From Thermococcus sp. (lineage in GTDB: Archaea; Methanobacteriota_B; Thermococci; Thermococcales; Thermococcaceae), in NCBI GenBank assembly GCA_027001105.1, contig JALTMZ010000130.1, forward strand, positions 1-15,613: a stretch of 15,613 bases of DNA, read 5' to 3'. Of the stretch, positions 7,858-14,968 are shown piece by piece (within the stretch, counting starts at the first letter, position 1; each line of letters starts with the position of its first letter). A program made the position numbers and the translations under genes. The notes below the pieces were generated by a model. It was not told the origin of the DNA. It did no database searches and saw only the letters and a list, made by a program, of their open reading frames with translations.

Positions 7858-7878
7858 TCATTATCCTAATTACTACTG

Positions 7879-8040
7879 CCGACAGCGAGGGTACAATTCG
7901 TACCCTCGTGGGCTCGGTCGAACCCGCCTCCGCAAGAACTCGGGCTCGATGAGCGGAGTGTGCTCACGCCGAGCCCATAGGGCCGGTGCATCCGCCCCCG
8001 TGAGCCATGAGCGGGGAGTCTCTGTTGCCGGCCCACACTT
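7879..8040 (+). ncRNA. H/ACA box guide RNA (two pocket hairpins plus a 5' hairpin)
   Basis: A second GC-rich island. The 5' element is a perfect 9-bp hairpin, CGAGGGTAC (7886-7894) with GTACCCTCG (7900-7908), without an ACA box of its own. The middle unit has lower stem 7910-7917 (GGGCTCGG) with 7969-7976 (CCGAGCCC), then ATA at 7977-7979; its upper stem is CTCCGC with GCGGAG and it has a TGA element. The last unit has stem 7980-7986 (GGGCCGG) with 8028-8034 (CCGGCCC), then ACA at 8035-8037; its upper stem CCCCG (7996-8000) with CGGGG (8012-8016) closes a K-loop with TGA (8001-8003) and GA (8009-8010). These are the defining parts of archaeal H/ACA RNAs acting with Cbf5 and L7Ae in pseudouridylation. 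Targets were not assigned. Ends are approximate. Confidence 0.85.
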
Positions 8041-8047
8041 TCAAAAC

Positions 8048-8055
8048 TTTTATAA
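8048..8055 (+). promoter_or_regulatory. Promoter of the HTH-CBS gene
   Basis: TTTTATAA centred about 26 nt before position 8078. The predicted leader is about 12 nt and contains the GGTGG ribosome binding site. It begins only 10 nt after the ACA box of the H/ACA RNA, whose 3' end must lie next to this box. Confidence 0.6.
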
Positions 8056-8089
8056 TCCTCAAAGTTAATTTTAATAACTGGTGGTTATT

Positions 8090-8650
8090 ATGGTAATTCT
8101 TCCCCGTCCAATTGATCCGCGAGAGATAAGGAGAATCAGAAAAGAGCTTGGAATTACCCAAGAGGAACTTGCGAAAAGGGCAGGTGTCACCCAAGCATAT
8201 ATAGCTAAGCTGGAAAGCGGGAAAGTTGATCCCAGACTCTCAACTTTTAATCGAATTCTTGAGGCTCTTCTTCAGTGTAAGAAAGCCCAGCTGAAAGCTA
8301 AAGATGTTATGTCCTCTCCGATAATTGCTGTTAAGCCATATGATCAAGTGGACAAGATAATTAAGCTGATGAATGAACATAACATATCCCAAGTTCCAGT
8401 GATTGCGGGAAACAAAGTTGTTGGTTCAGTAACTGAAAGAACATTAGTCAGGAAAAGCCTGGAATATGAAGATATTTACGAAAGAAAGGCCATGGAAGTC
8501 ATGGAGGAGCCTTTTCCAATAGTTAATGATGAGGAGGACATTGAGGTTGTTAAATATCTCCTTGAAGAGCATCCAGCGGTTATTGTGCAGAATAAAGAGG
8601 GAAAGCCTGTAGGAATAATAACCCGCTCAGACCTGTTCCGGCTTAAGTGA
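8090..8650 (+). CDS. HTH transcriptional regulator with a CBS domain pair
   Basis: A 186-residue protein. Residues about 10-62 form a Cro/CI (XRE)-type helix-turn-helix: IRRIRKELGITQEELAKRAG followed by VTQAYIAKLESGKVDPRLST. Residues about 70-125 and 133-186 form two CBS domains (KAKDVMSSPIIAVKPYDQV; VVGSVTERTLVR; AMEVMEEPFPIVNDEEDIE; PVGIITRSDLF). CBS pairs bind adenosine nucleotides or SAM, so this is probably a nucleotide- or SAM-responsive DNA-binding protein, a layout common in Euryarchaeota. Its targets are unknown. The ATG at 8090 is preferred over the GTG at 8081 because GGTGG (8080-8084) lies 5 nt before it. The gene's stop codon abuts an antisense C/D RNA. Confidence 0.88.
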   Translation: MVILPRPIDPREIRRIRKELGITQEELAKRAGVTQAYIAKLESGKVDPRLSTFNRILEALLQCKKAQLKAKDVMSSPIIAVKPYDQVDKIIKLMNEHNISQVPVIAGNKVVGSVTERTLVRKSLEYEDIYERKAMEVMEEPFPIVNDEEDIEVVKYLLEEHPAVIVQNKEGKPVGIITRSDLFRLK

Positions 8651-8700
8651 TCAGCCAGCCGTCCACTCATCATCCCTCAGCGTCGGAAGGCATCGTCACC
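8648..8700 (-). ncRNA. C/D box methylation guide RNA (second)
   Basis: On the minus strand, in order: C box GTGACGA (8699-8693, one mismatch to RTGATGA), 12-nt guide TGCCTTCCGACG, D' box CTGA (8680-8677), 3-nt spacer, C' box ATGATGA (8673-8667), 12-nt guide GTGGACGGCTGG, D box CTGA (8654-8651). This is the standard archaeal layout. By the D+5 rule the D' guide would act on a G within CGUCGGAAGGCA, the D guide on a C within CCAGCCGUCCAC; I could not place these in rRNA or tRNA. A same-strand TATA-like box at 8723-8730 is correctly spaced. The D box starts right after the stop codon of the HTH-CBS gene, so the RNA 3' end is antisense to that gene's end. Confidence 0.88.
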
Positions 8701-8722
8701 ATTATACTACATCTACCTGCAA

Positions 8723-9792: not shown

Positions 9793-10794
9793 TTAACCCT
9801 TCCCTCCAATCTCCATAAGCCTCTCATAAAGCTCATCAACTTTCTTCGCAACATCATCAACGGTAAACCCCTTCTTAACGGCCAGCCAAACTGCTCCTCC
9901 TGCTCCAACGCCTTCTTTCACATAGCCTCTCTCATAATCCTGCAGACCCTTGAACTTGCTCTTCGAAAAGTCAAGCTCAGCATAGTAGTAAATTATGCCA
10001 ATATCTTTTGCCGTCTTCTTAAACGTTGAACTCTCATCATTTACAACCCACTTTGTCGTGGCAATCATGAATCTGCTCAAATCTTCTCCCATTGCTTTGA
10101 GCAGAGCAGCTACTGCAAGCATCTGAGTTCCGCCAGCTAAGACAACATCACCTTTGAATCCTTGAGAAATTCCAATGACGGTTGCCATCATTGGGTCGCC
10201 AAACTCCTCCAATGCTTTTAAAGGCTCGTCTGCAAATCCACCTTTTTCAATGCCAGCTCTCTTAAAGCCTTCCGTGATTACCTGCTCCTTTAAGCTTTGG
10301 GGATTATTTGGAGCTGCTGAGCTTGTTCTTGCATCATACCCCAAAGCCCAAAGAACAGCTTGAGCCGTTGTCGTTCCTCCCGGCGTTGACTCACCAATTA
10401 CGATTTCTCTCAGATTAAGTTTGCTCAGCTGCTCTCCAAAGAGCTTTGCCTTCTCTATTATCTTTTCTGCTTCCGGGAGGGCTTTCTCTCTGCGGAAGTC
10501 CCTTCCGACTACGTCGCTTATGTGAACGTGAGGAACTAAGGGAGCTAAATAAGTCCCTCCCCTAACAATTACAATTGGAAAATCAGCCAGCTCCTTAGCG
10601 GCTTTAGTGATTATAGCCGGTGTTGGGTGCCCTTCTGGAGTTACAGGGATAACGTCAATGATTTTAGGCTTTTCATAAAACAGATATTCGGCATCAGCAG
10701 GCGGCGTCAATTTGGTTAACTCCGGAGTTGCTCCAGCAACACTTATCCCCGGGATTGTGCTTACCTCAGTGTTCCCCAAAACTACCAGCATCAT
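9793..10794 (-). CDS. cobT: Nicotinate mononucleotide-dependent phosphoribosyltransferase CobT-like (UPF0284 type)
   Basis: Expected to activate the lower-ligand base of cobalamin: NaMN plus 5,6-dimethylbenzimidazole or another base gives the alpha-ribotide joined later by CobS. The 333-residue protein has [22 protein letters not shown] at the N-terminus, [16 protein letters not shown] near 75-90, [21 protein letters not shown] near 135-155, [18 protein letters not shown] near 220 and [12 protein letters not shown] near 300, matching the archaeal/cyanobacterial UPF0284 branch rather than classic bacterial CobT. The ATG at 10794 is chosen because AAGGGTG (10801-10807) lies 6 nt before it; the next ATG at 10791 is possible. 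Diverges from btuF across a short shared promoter with two TTGG-N9-CCAA sites. Confidence 0.88.
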
Positions 10795-10805
10795 AATCTT
10801 CACCC

Positions 10806-10822
10806 TTGGCAATTTTATCCAA
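10806..10822. promoter_or_regulatory. Candidate operator, copy 1 (TTGG-N9-CCAA)
   Basis: TTGGCAATTTTATCCAA, an inverted repeat of 17 nt. It overlaps the first bases of the cobT ribosome binding site on the minus strand and lies just before the shared TATA box. A second copy with the same spacing is at 10861-10877. Confidence 0.5.
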
Positions 10823-10827
10823 CAAGC

Positions 10828-10834
10828 TTATATA
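10828..10834. promoter_or_regulatory. Shared TATA-like box of the cobT/btuF divergent promoter
   Basis: TTATATA on the plus strand, TATATAA on the minus strand. It is the only good TATA box in the cobT/btuF intergenic region. It is spaced for a plus start near 10857 and a minus start near 10805, so it may serve both directions. Confidence 0.5.
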
Positions 10835-10860
10835 CCCTTCGCTCATATTTTTGCTGAAGA

Positions 10861-10877
10861 TTGGACAAATAATCCAA
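10861..10877. promoter_or_regulatory. Candidate operator, copy 2 (TTGG-N9-CCAA)
   Basis: TTGGACAAATAATCCAA, 17 nt with TTGGA/TCCAA arms. It lies directly after the predicted btuF start of transcription and directly before its ribosome binding site (AAAGGTGAG), a position suited to repression. Its centre is 55 nt from that of copy 1. Confidence 0.5.
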
Positions 10878-10889
10878 AAGGTGAGAATC

Positions 10890-12755
10890 ATGAAAAGAAA
10901 AGTCGCCCTGATTTTGACAATTTTGATGTTTGGAGTAATAATAGCGGGCTGTATAAATCAACAGAGCCCCTCCACCCCAAGCACAACCCCAACAAGTACG
11001 ACTACCCAAGCAACCTCCTCAAACTCAAAAGAGATGACAGCAGCCCACACAACCTCAACTACAAAAGCTCCAACGGAGACTGAACAGCGAAAGTATCCGA
11101 TAACCATCACTGATTTTGCAGATAGAAAAGTTACCATCGAAAAAGAACCTCAGAGAATTGTTTCCTTAGCTCCAAGTATAACCGAAACCTTATACTTCCT
11201 CGGGGCTTTGGATAAAGTTGTAGGTGTTACCAAATATGATGATTTTCCCCCCGGAGTGCAGGAAGATAGAACAATTATTGGTGGATTCAGCAATCCAAAC
11301 ATCGAGATAATTGCATCTCTGAAACCTGATCTAATCATCGCTACATCTATGCACCTGAAATATCTCACTCAACTTGAGCAGATTGCCCCGGTTATAATAA
11401 TTGATCCTAAGAATATGGAGGACATCTACAAAGCAATTGAACTTCTTGGCAAGGTTGTCAACAAGGAAGAACAAGCACAAAAAGTTATTGCAGATATGAA
11501 GTCAAAAGTTGAGGAAATCCAAAATGCAGTTAAGGGCAAGTCAAAAGTCAAAGTCTTTTATGTTGTCTGGAATAACCCCCTGATGACCGCTGGAAAGGGA
11601 ACTTTCATTGATGACCTGATTGAATTAGCCGGTGGAGAAAACGTATTCAGTGATGTTGAAGGATGGGCACAGGTAAGTGTAGAGCAGGTTTTAGCTAAGG
11701 ATCCAGAGGTCATAATTCTCACGCCTCATTGTGGAATGACGGTTCAGGATGTATATCACAGCGAACTTTCAAAGACAACTGCCGCCAAGGAAGGAAAGGT
11801 GGTGGTAATTCAAAACGACAATGTCCTTGTAAGACCCTCTCCAAGGATTGTTATTGGGCTCGAAGAGCTTGCAAAAGTTATTCATCCTGATGTATTTGGA
11901 GGAAAGTATCCCCTCACTGTTATTGATTTCATGAACAGAACAGTCACAATTGAAAAAGAACCCCAAAGAATTGTCTCACTTGCACCAAGCATAACAGAAA
12001 CCCTGTTCTATATAGGTGCCGGTGATAAGGTTGTTGGTGTTACAAAGTACGATGACTTCCCACCACAGGTATTGAACATAACCAAAATTGGGGGATTCAG
12101 CAACCCGAACATTGAGATAATAGCATCCCTTAAACCAGACCTTATAATAGGCACTTCAATGCATCTTAAGTATCTTAAACAATTGGAACAGATTGCTCCG
12201 GTTATAATAGTTGCTCCAAGGAACTTAGAGGAGATTTACAAGCAAATAGAACTTTTGGGAAAAGTTACCAACAGGGAGGAATATGCACAAAGTGTTGTTA
12301 ATGAAATGAAGGCAAAAGTTGAGTACATAACTTCAAGGGTTAGGGAGAAGCCAAAACCAAAGGTTTTCTTCATAAGCTGGTGGAACCCAATTTACACTCC
12401 TGGTAGAGATACGTTCCAGGGTGATCTTATTGAATTAGCCGGTGGAGAGAATGTATTCAATGATTTAACCGGCTGGGCACAAGTTAGCATTGAGCAGGTG
12501 TTGGCGAGAAATCCAGAAATCATAATACTTTCAGCTCATGCTGGAATTTCACCAGAACAGCTCTGTGAGACAGAGCTCGCAAAGACAGATGCAGTAAAGA
12601 ACGGTAGGGTCTATGTTATAAGCGACGACAACATAATTTCGCGTCCAGGACCCAGGATTGTGCTGGGTTTGGAGGAGCTGGCAGAATTCATACATCCTGA
12701 AGTTTTCAACTATGAACCACAACCGTTGAAGTGTAGTGCCTCGGCCTCTGGTTAA
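10890..12755 (+). CDS. btuF: Cobalamin/siderophore-type binding lipoprotein with two tandem BtuF domains
   Basis: A 621-residue surface lipoprotein for uptake of corrinoid (or a metal chelate) by an ABC transporter. Residues 1-21 are a lipoprotein signal peptide with lipobox IAGC and Cys21. A Ser/Thr-rich linker follows (about 22-66), then two complete periplasmic-binding-protein domains of the BtuF/FhuD class at about 68-335 and 338-605. Both carry RIVSLAPSITETL, KVVGVTKYDDFPP, GGFSNPNIEIIASLKPDLII, EQIAPVII and ELAGGENVF-GWAQVS-EQVLA. Single-domain proteins of this family are about 260-370 residues, so this is a duplication fused in one chain. B12 specificity is inferred from the cob neighbours; iron chelates remain possible. 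The ATG at 10890 follows AAAGGTGAG and begins the signal peptide. btuC/btuD are absent here. The radical SAM gene follows after 36 nt. Confidence 0.88.
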   Translation: MKRKVALILTILMFGVIIAGCINQQSPSTPSTTPTSTTTQATSSNSKEMTAAHTTSTTKAPTETEQRKYPITITDFADRKVTIEKEPQRIVSLAPSITETLYFLGALDKVVGVTKYDDFPPGVQEDRTIIGGFSNPNIEIIASLKPDLIIATSMHLKYLTQLEQIAPVIIIDPKNMEDIYKAIELLGKVVNKEEQAQKVIADMKSKVEEIQNAVKGKSKVKVFYVVWNNPLMTAGKGTFIDDLIELAGGENVFSDVEGWAQVSVEQVLAKDPEVIILTPHCGMTVQDVYHSELSKTTAAKEGKVVVIQNDNVLVRPSPRIVIGLEELAKVIHPDVFGGKYPLTVIDFMNRTVTIEKEPQRIVSLAPSITETLFYIGAGDKVVGVTKYDDFPPQVLNITKIGGFSNPNIEIIASLKPDLIIGTSMHLKYLKQLEQIAPVIIVAPRNLEEIYKQIELLGKVTNREEYAQSVVNEMKAKVEYITSRVREKPKPKVFFISWWNPIYTPGRDTFQGDLIELAGGENVFNDLTGWAQVSIEQVLARNPEIIILSAHAGISPEQLCETELAKTDAVKNGRVYVISDDNIISRPGPRIVLGLEELAEFIHPEVFNYEPQPLKCSASASG

Positions 12756-12791
12756 TCTTTCTCCTCCCTACCATTTCTTTTGGTGGTTGCC

Positions 12792-13514
12792 ATGACGAAT
12801 GTTTATCACATTGTCAAGTTTCAAAGCGGAGATGCATATGTGCTCTTCCATGGTTGTCATTGGCGCTGTTCTTATTGTGTATGGGCGTTTGAAAAATGGA
12901 ATCTGTGTCTTCCAGATGATTTAAAGAGAAAGCTTGATAAGCTGTGGATCCAGAGGGATATTAAATTTTTGAGCATTGAGGAAGTTGTGAGGATTTTAAA
13001 GAAAAATGGTGTTAAGCTGGCTTTTTTCGGAGGCGGAGAACCTACAATTGATAGAGAGCTCAAACCATTGATAAAACGGTTGAAAAAAGAAGGGATTGAT
13101 GTATGGCTTATCACTAACGGTGAGCTTTTGGATAAGGAACTTGTCGAGTTGGTGAAGGGAGTAACATTCAGCATAAAAGCCCTTGATGATGAGCTTCACA
13201 AGAAAATAACTGGTGTTTCTAATCATAGGGCTCTTGGAAACTTTAAACGCTTTGCAAAAAGCGGGAAAATAGTTGCCGAAACTGTTTATGTTAAAGGTAT
13301 AGTAGAGTGTGATGAAATATTAAAAATAGCCAAATTCATAGCATCACTAAATCCAAAAATCAGGTTCAGAATTGATCCTCTTGTCCAGAACCCCGTATAT
13401 GAAGAGGTTGATGAATGCATAAGGAAAGTGAGAAAAATCCTGCCAAACACGTATAGAATAAGGGGAACAGGAAAAGGTAAACCTCCTACTTTGCTTTATC
13501 CTGAGGTGAGTTAA
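12792..13514 (+). CDS. Radical SAM protein in the cobalamin cluster
   Basis: A 240-residue radical SAM enzyme. Cys22, Cys26 and Cys29 form the CxxxCxxC motif (CHWRCSYC) that binds a 4Fe-4S cluster; GGGEPT at 80-85 is the GGE SAM motif, followed by WLITNGELL and a C-terminal [11 protein letters not shown]. It is short and has no visible auxiliary-cluster (SPASM-like) Cys set; its overall pattern is like pyruvate formate-lyase activating enzymes and related small radical SAM proteins. The substrate is unknown. It sits 36 nt after btuF and 2 nt before cbiP, so it is very probably co-transcribed with cobalamin genes; a part in corrinoid remodelling or lower-ligand supply is inferred from place only. 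GGTGG at 12782-12786 fixes the ATG at 12792 over a TTG at 12780. Confidence 0.85.
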
Positions 13515-13516
13515 AT

Positions 13517-14968
13517 ATGGGGAAAGCCCTCATGATCCAGGGTACTTCATCAGGGGCTGGAAAATCTCTCCTGGCATTAGCCCTGGGCAGAATCCTCACA
13601 AATATGGGCTACGATGTAGCTCCGTTTAAAAGCCAAAACATGAGCCTAAACTCTGCCCCAAGCATAGAAGGAGGAGAGATCAGCAGAGCGCAGTATTTAC
13701 AAGCTTTAGCGTGCAGAAAGAAGCCTTCAATAAATTTTAACCCCATTTTACTTAAGCCAGAGGGGAATATGAGGAGTCAGGTTGTATTTATGGGAAAGCC
13801 AATAGGAAGTGTCTTCGCTCGTGAATATATGCTCTCAAAGAAAGAGGAACTTTTCAAAAAAGCCATGCAGGTTTTAGATGAGCTTTTGGAAAAGCATGAC
13901 ATCGTTGTAATTGAAGGTGCTGGGAGTCCAGTCGAAATCAACCTCAAGGATTATGATATTGCAAATATGCGTGTTGCAAAACATGCAAACGCCAGAGTCA
14001 TTCTCGTTACGGACATAGATCGAGGCGGTAGTTTTGCCTCAATAGTCGGCACAATGGAATTATTAAGTAAAGAAGAGCGGGAACTCGTAATCGGCTTTGT
14101 CTTTAACAAGTTTAGGGGAGATGCCTCTCTGCTAAAACCTGGTTTCGATTATCTTGAGAAGAGATACGGTAAGAAGGTTTTGGGTGTGATACCATACAAG
14201 GAGCATAAAATCCCAGAAGAGGACTCTCTCGTTGAATTTCCAAAAGTCAAGGGTGATTTGCACATTCAAATCGTTAAGCTCCCCCATATAAGCAACTTCA
14301 CGGATTTTGAACCTCTCCACTGGGCAAACGGGGTTGATTATGTCACAAAAGCGGAAGAAATCGAAGGGGATTTAATCATAATTCCCGGAAGCAAGAACAC
14401 GGTTGAAGATCTGCTCTGGATGAGGGAGAACGGCATTGAAGATGCAATAATCCAGGCACATAGAGATGGGGCATTCGTTGTAGGGGTCTGCGGTGGCTTT
14501 CAGATGCTGGGGGAAAAGATCATTGATGACATAGAATCGAAGCGTGGTGAGGTTAGGGGCATTGGTCTGCTGAAAGCTAAAACAGTGTTTGCTGAAACCA
14601 AGAGAACAAACCATTTAAAGGCTGAAATTATGTGGGAGCCTATGAGAGGCTTAAACGTTGAAGGTTATGAGATTAGGATGGGGCGCTCTGTATCAAAAAA
14701 GCCATTCTCAATAATATGTGAAATAAACGGAGCCAAGGCTTTTGAGCCCGAAGGGGCTGTTGGGAAAAGGGTTTTTGGCACTTATCTCCACGGAATATTT
14801 CACAACTTTGAATTTACGGAGCAGTTTTTGAACATGCTTCGCTTAGAGAAAGGTCTTGAACCAATAACAGTGCAGAAGTGGAGTATTGAAGAGGAAATCG
14901 AGAAATTTGCAAAGATTGTTGAGAGGAATCTCGACATTAACTATATTTTGGACAGCTTGGGGCTGTAA
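13517..14968 (+). CDS. cbiP: Cobyric acid synthase (glutamine-dependent)
   Basis: Amidates side chains b, d, e and g of adenosylcobyrinic acid a,c-diamide using glutamine and ATP to make adenosylcobyric acid. The 483-residue length is normal. The N-terminal dethiobiotin-synthetase-like ATPase domain has the P-loop [17 protein letters not shown] at about 8-24, KSQNMSLNS near 36-44, and [13 protein letters not shown]. The C-terminal glutamine amidotransferase domain has [13 protein letters not shown] with the nucleophile Cys325, and TYLHGIFHN with His425. GAGGTGAG a few bases before ATG supports the start. It follows the radical SAM gene closely and is the last gene of the btuF string. Its final 28 nt overlap the 3' end of cobY on the other strand. 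Confidence 0.96.

Follow-up and report, generated by a model that had tools for sequence, protein, structure and literature searches.

The window analysed here, i.e., the whole stretch of 15,613 nucleotides from Thermococcus sp. (assembly GCA_027001105.1, contig JALTMZ010000130.1), contains a divergent pair of B12-linked genes, cobT and btuF, whose common upstream region carries two copies of a palindrome. The genes and sites discussed below are the following:

8081..8650, plus strand: HTH-CBS protein gene (Pfam HTH_3 and two CBS stretches)
9793..10794, minus strand: cobT, nicotinate mononucleotide-dependent phosphoribosyltransferase (NCBIfam TIGR00303, 328 bits, cut-off 240)
10806-10822, no strand assigned: site 1, TTGGCAATTTTATCCAA, candidate operator between the TATA element and the cobT start
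10828-10835, no strand assigned: TATA-like element, CTTATATA, read from the sequence, between sites 1 and 2
10861-10877, no strand assigned: site 2, TTGGACAAATAATCCAA, candidate operator between the TATA element and the btuF start codon
10890..12755, plus strand: btuF, B12 ABC transporter substrate-binding protein with two tandem binding domains (Pfam PF01497, two stretches)
12780-13514, plus strand: radical SAM protein gene, after btuF
13517-14968, plus strand: CobQ/CbiP-type amidotransferase gene

The cobT product has no Pfam matches, and its start, as judged from the sequence, is probably the ATG at 10794, with the mechanical open reading frame extending to 10812. The btuF product scores 247.9 bits against the NCBIfam model NF002894 BtuF (cut-off 234) and 346.4 bits against TIGR04281 (cut-off 325). 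The spacing of the radical SAM and CobQ/CbiP-type genes (12780..14968) suggests that they probably form one transcription unit with btuF. The window also encodes cbiZ and a MobA-like nucleotidyltransferase (cobY, read from the sequence), as well as three RNAs above the Rfam gathering scores, namely HgcF (7878-8048), HgcE (691-822) and a C/D-box RNA like sR5 (8650-8702). A search of a plasmid collection returned no matches.

The first-pass annotation had described two TTGG-N9-CCAA palindromes between cobT and btuF, and both are exact, with centres 55 bp apart and the TATA-like element between them. This element is nearly symmetric (its reverse strand reads TATATAAG) and probably serves both cobT on the minus strand and btuF on the plus strand; relative to btuF, site 1 lies just upstream of it. 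Copy 1 had been placed at the start region of cobT, and it is indeed near that start, but since translation probably begins at the ATG at 10794, this copy belongs to the upstream region or leader of the gene. No motif was seen in front of cbiZ when the window was checked again, in agreement with the first reading. When the 94-bp gap (10796-10889) was dinucleotide-shuffled 20,000 times, at least one site occurred in 92 of the shuffles and two sites in none. Across the whole window, the loose TTGG-N9-CCAA pattern occurs three times against 0.53 expected, a count reached in 3 of 200 shuffles; the third match (12255-12271) is within the btuF coding sequence. The window's own genome contains 37 loose sites versus 17 for the reversed pattern, and by itself the loose pattern is weak genome-wide evidence.

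DNA similarity to window positions 10600-11200 was detected in 29 of 61 genomes, and all 29 belong to the Thermococcaceae, the family of the window. The core of the motif was defined as GGA-N7-TCC with an A/T-rich centre and at most one arm mismatch. It was found upstream of all 28 scored Thermococcaceae cobT genes, a set that was gathered via the same DNA similarity and is therefore partly dependent on the site; conservation in orthologous regions, the test proposed together with the original reading, is thus borne out. The site is located at -10 to -21 from the script-called start codon in 26 of these promoters, and in the remaining two (L007 and L014) only the btuF-side copy was scored. The window cobT was scored from an in-frame GTG start; relative to the ATG at 10794, which is the likelier start, the centre of copy 1 is at -20, as in many other cobT promoters. 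Among cobT upstream stretches in named contigs (20 of 80 loci, inspected by eye), the site is present in assemblies assigned to Thermococcus, Thermococcaceae, Thermococcales and Thermococci, and no site was seen in those from Archaeoglobus, Euryarchaeota, Aciduliprofundum, Thermoplasmata, Thermoproteales and Methanopyri.

In the scored btuF promoters (14 rows, of which 12 are distinct), a site occurs on either side of the TATA element, the near one at about -18 to -21, and the spacing within the pair varies from 31 to 55 bp with no evident helical regularity. A TATA-like element lies between or at both sites in the scored relatives, and in one btuF promoter (L038) the upstream site overlaps it. 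The pair persists where the neighbouring gene is not cobT, being shared with btuR (L053), with the HTH-CBS gene (L251) or with an unrelated hydrolase-like gene read from the sequence (L029). Because the pair flanks the btuF TATA element even at these loci, we predict that it constitutes a double operator of btuF, the upstream member of which may be used by cobT as its own operator in the genus of the window.

The motif was sharpened to TTGGA-N7-TCCAA with an A/T centre (TTGGANNWWWNNTCCAA) after the cobT sites had been seen. This strict form has 150 sites versus 30 for the reversed pattern in 94 Thermococcaceae genomes and is present in 59 of them. In 24 genomes outside the family, there are 23 strict sites versus 3 reversed, with a strict match in 13 genomes; the ten of these 23 sites that were examined all fall inside reading frames, none of which matches the reference B12 set. 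The reversed-pattern control thus runs low, about one chance site per genome is to be expected, and the evidence therefore rests on the location of sites. An equal frequency in random DNA had been named at the outset as an argument against the motif; on this point the raw counts are moderate evidence, given the low control, and the location is far from random. Indeed, in a survey of every strict site in 11 near-complete Thermococcaceae genomes, 34 of 47 sites precede a small set of B12-linked genes, whereas 12 are inside unrelated reading frames and one is between unrelated genes; these 13 look like chance occurrences.

The 34 target sites are distributed among cobT/btuF loci (9), nrdD (9), acs (6), mutase genes (5), meaB (2), btuC (1), cbiB (1) and a DASS transporter gene (1), so that 25 of them are away from the cobT/btuF locus that served to sharpen the motif. 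One representative each of cobT, btuF, mcmA1, mcmA2, meaB, nrdD, acs, the DASS protein and btuR was identified by Pfam or NCBIfam models; for the DASS protein the DASS model is just under its cut-off and Pfam CitMHS well over, and for acs, the product of which is an ADP-forming acyl-CoA synthetase alpha-type protein, TIGR02717 is just under. The identities of btuC, cobS and cbiB were read from the sequence. A site was found at cobS in one of four cases and at cbiB in three of five, two of them weak, and both genes are poorly supported as targets. The protein with the ENANRYPGP sequence was initially considered as PEP carboxykinase, which is ruled out by Pfam and NCBIfam, both giving NrdD. A 692-aa protein with a signal-like N-terminus and no Pfam match (L039:3429-5504) is encoded divergently from a btuC-like gene, with a site between the two.

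The promoters of mcmA2, mcmA1, nrdD, the HTH-CBS gene and an ArsR gene were gathered by protein family, which avoids selection by site, and those of acs and DASS genes were drawn from 30 ArsR loci, the ArsR gene being present in 88 genomes. The counts exclude the mcmA1 promoter of the window's own genome, which is truncated at a contig end, as well as unscorable loci of nrdD (three of ten) and HTH-CBS (one of 22). Under the core definition, the site is present in all promoters of mcmA2 (15/15), mcmA1 (14/14), nrdD (7/7) and DASS (4/4) and in 16 of 25 acs promoters, and in none of the 21 promoters of HTH-CBS used as a control; in shuffled mutase promoters, the core appeared in 189 of 5800 trials. 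A stricter definition (at most two arm mismatches with GG and CC intact) retains 13/15 mcmA2, 12/14 mcmA1 and 7/7 nrdD promoters, again with 0/21 for HTH-CBS, and gives 13/27 for ArsR, where most matches are about 110-118 bp upstream, in the gap that separates the ArsR gene from an acs or DASS gene.

A second, strand-specific element, TGTAAA, was noticed in 13/14 mcmA1, 9/15 mcmA2 and 18/25 acs promoters and in none of the cobT (0/28), nrdD (0/7) and HTH-CBS (0/21) promoters. It may belong to another regulator, perhaps a PH1932-like ArsR protein.

The sites take two kinds of position. At cobT, btuF (near site), btuC, nrdD, meaB and DASS genes, the site centre is about 9-23 bp before the start codon, a repressor-like position (class R); the btuC and meaB sets among these were gathered by site. 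No convincing TATA match is visible in several nrdD promoters, and some carry an additional site farther upstream. At mcmA1, mcmA2 and 22 of 31 acs promoters, six of the 31 having been gathered by site, the motif lies upstream of the TATA element, an activator-like position (class A). The acs genes are inconsistent: G018 (L049) has a class R site, other genomes have class A sites, and 9 of the 25 promoters lack the core. The repressor-like position at meaB, a mutase helper, is likewise hard to fit into a simple scheme. By eye, a carboxyltransferase gene of one genome (G075, L237:2004-3569, PF01039), perhaps encoding the methylmalonyl-CoA decarboxylase alpha subunit, has an exact site in a class A-like position upstream of a TATA-like element.

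Among the 51 class A promoters, the distance between the centres of site and TATA element is 42.5-44.5 bp in 31, 31.5-35.5 bp in six, 22.5-24.5 bp in eleven and 17.5 bp in three, so that 48 fall at about 43, 33 or 23 bp. The three 17.5-bp cases are acs sites of Pyrococcus-like genomes (group g2), and at btuF the upstream site, presumably a repressive one, is about equally far from the TATA element. The increments of about 10 bp suggest a constraint that keeps the site on the same helical face. With a period of 10.5 bp, the observed phasing is reached by 3 of 20,000 random sets for 16 distinct gene-distance pairs and by 321 of 20,000 for 8 hand-grouped events, figures that refer to a pattern spotted post hoc in related genomes and fitted nearly as well by periods of 10 and 11. 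In the mutase promoters, another conserved element between the site and the TATA element could on its own account for the fixed spacing.

We consider it likely that the palindromes are operators of one DNA-binding protein and delimit a B12-linked regulon of the Thermococcaceae, in which this protein would repress or activate depending on the position of its site. In the proposed mechanism, a single sequence-specific protein, probably a homodimer, would bind the palindromes across the regulon. At cobT, btuF, other B12 acquisition genes and nrdD, the protein would block initiation from a position between the TATA element and the start codon, and at btuF it would occupy two sites bracketing the TATA element. 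At both mutase genes and many acs genes, the protein would sit about 23, 33 or 43 bp upstream of the TATA element, where it would probably help to recruit the transcription machinery. The signal would most likely be adequate cobalamin, with the DNA-bound state corresponding to the B12-replete state, and a regulator active at ample B12 would dispense with B12 uptake and NrdD and promote the mutase. The class III ribonucleotide reductase encoded by nrdD is B12-independent, and NrdJ is B12-dependent. NrdJ was found in all 15 genomes and NrdD was over the cut-off in eight of the 15; in the window's own genome, which is 80% complete, no NrdD was found. Most NrdJ genes (L281-L300) and the NrdD gene of one genome (G004, L277/L279) show matches in separate pieces of one long frame (up to 2130 aa), an intein-like arrangement. 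A proteome study lists a CobT homologue of Thermococcus kodakarensis (TK0853) as raised in stationary phase (PMC4870337); such a rise would fit depletion of the vitamin and is silent on the cause.

The suggestion that a protein represses the cobalamin genes, made in the first-pass annotation, is supported by the conservation of the sites, their location at target genes, the absence of riboswitches and the occurrence of sites upstream of TATA elements, from which we infer the protein, the repression and the response to B12. The present analysis adds a sharper motif, a regulon that is wider than the cobalamin genes, and the activator-like position at the mutase genes, which probably makes the regulator dual-acting. 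A chance origin of the palindromes is hardly conceivable: although loose sites outnumber reversed ones only about twofold in the window's genome and the 13 chance-like strict sites do exist, all scored cobT promoters and the independently gathered mutase and nrdD sets keep the core, and none of the shuffled gaps held two sites; conservation in gene sets gathered regardless of site refutes this explanation. An RNA element, either a B12 riboswitch or a leader hairpin, is very improbable as well and largely refuted. Many sites fall within the expected leader or close to it, and a palindromic sequence is capable of folding, but the mutase sites and the upstream btuF site are upstream of the TATA element, outside the expected transcript. 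The cobalamin riboswitch RF00174 was found in none of the 94 Thermococcaceae genomes searched with the stricter filters and in 8 of 14 control genomes; it is also absent among the 13 Rfam matches of the window at E-values up to 1. The riboswitch reading was therefore rejected, and the missing riboswitch together with the sites outside the expected transcript favours a DNA-binding protein.

Two other explanations retain the protein and are unlikely. In one of them, a B12-linked protein would repress all targets, and the mutase sites upstream of the TATA element would be repressive too or would serve a divergent neighbour. Most target classes do show the repressor-like position, some mutase genes have a divergent neighbour (a PHP or Toprim gene), and the three 17.5-bp acs sites are about as far from the TATA element as the upstream btuF site. 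However, the distance between site and TATA element at mcmA1 and mcmA2 is kept though the divergent neighbour differs or is absent, and the clustering of 48 of the 51 class A distances would be unneeded for plain steric blocking. The other explanation, also improbable in our judgement, replaces B12 by a linked metabolic state such as propionate, succinate or methylmalonyl-CoA flux, the B12 genes following as cofactor supply. It would account for the mutase, meaB, acyl-CoA synthetase, DASS-type transporter and G075 carboxyltransferase genes among the targets, whereas nrdD, btuF, btuC and cobT are genes that a B12 signal would be expected to control and show no obvious connection with propionate metabolism; in addition, one metabolic signal would have to switch uptake and mutase in the directions suggested by the site positions.

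As to the identity of the proposed regulator, the HTH-CBS protein encoded 2 kb away is a candidate that we offer as a lead only and judge possible but doubtful. Its gene is present in all 22 Thermococcaceae searched, with orthologues in seven of eight genomes outside the family, where the sites examined do not mark B12 genes; none of the 21 scored HTH-CBS promoters (22 loci) has a site. The gene adjoins cbiZ in the five examined genomes of group g1 and is directly upstream of btuF in G033. In G013 and G008, a single gene stands between it and either a btuF match or a double site like that of btuF, and in G027 the intervening gene alone was observed. For the other 12 Thermococcaceae, the 1.5 kb examined showed no link to a B12 gene. 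A 403-407-aa protein with a signal-like N-terminus and a sub-threshold Pfam match only (L248:182-1402) adjoins the HTH-CBS gene, and in a distant archaeal genome (G060, L269) an HTH-CBS relative with 33% identity is convergent to an epimerase-like gene, which itself follows a mutase large-subunit gene. A more elaborate scheme, speculative and rather unlikely as a whole, would involve a single cobalamin-sensing factor that shuts off B12 acquisition and the B12-free ribonucleotide reductase and switches on the mutase pathway. This factor might be the HTH-CBS protein, the CBS pair of which would sense adenosylcobalamin or an adenosyl ligand related to it; activation would depend on the helix face, and sites would have moved in whole turns (about 43, 33 and 23 bp) with their function kept.

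The ArsR protein like PH1932 (PDB 1uly), of which a pair could be imagined as the regulator, seems an unlikely choice. It occurs in all 74 good genomes and in 88 of 94 overall, and the 30 ArsR loci, many of which have no site, carry acs beside the ArsR gene in 25 cases and a DASS gene in four. With this near-universal distribution and so many loci lacking a site, it is improbable as the regulator of the regulon; more likely, it serves acs locally, perhaps via TGTAAA. At 29 of the 30 loci (L071-L100), the genes for the PH1932-like ArsR, often a DUF211 protein, and a second ArsR cluster beside the acs or DASS gene. A search with PF02310 in 15 genomes gave matches in frames of two size classes, about 150 aa (mutase subunit; one annotated) and about 420-540 aa, the latter known by length alone; none of these was an evident PF02310-HTH fusion. 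DUF4443 and Lrp-like HTH genes adjoin a target. In our literature search, we recognised no paper describing this motif, a B12 regulator of the Thermococcales or a protein replacing riboswitches there. The sites themselves are ready bait for the regulator, with about ten target genes for which opposite responses are predicted. Should the shifts by whole turns in front of the mutase genes prove robust, they would document, in natural promoters, that activation in archaea depends on the helix face.

Riboswitches are well-known bacterial sensors of B12, and bacterial cobalamin riboswitches control B12-independent isoenzymes such as ribonucleotide reductase. RF00174 is described as having a role at bacterial B12 synthesis and transport genes (PMC545781). 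The kinds of targets are alike in the two systems, comprising B12 uptake and B12-independent isoenzymes. The means is different, being here a DNA palindrome, located in part upstream of the TATA element, in a family with no riboswitch in 94 genomes.

Among archaea, a 'CBL-box', i.e., a DNA signal that lies in front of B12 genes in some archaea and would be recognised by a hypothetical regulator, was reportedly proposed by Rodionov et al. in 2003. The present motif may be the same signal, as both are conserved DNA signals before archaeal B12 genes, here at 28 of 28 cobT promoters and in 34 of 47 sites. If so, the existence of the motif is not new, and novelty could be claimed for the wider regulon and the positional split only insofar as they are absent from the 2003 paper. 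The dual use of site position has a parallel in the Thermococcales glycolytic motif (TGM) recognised by Tgr/TrmBL1, where palindromes after the BRE/TATA serve repression and those before it activation (PMC4158304). Sites after the TATA element at some genes and before it at others are common to both systems, whereas the TGM reads TATCAC-N5-GTGATA and is tied to a sugar signal, and the motif described here reads TTGGA-N7-TCCAA and marks B12-linked genes.
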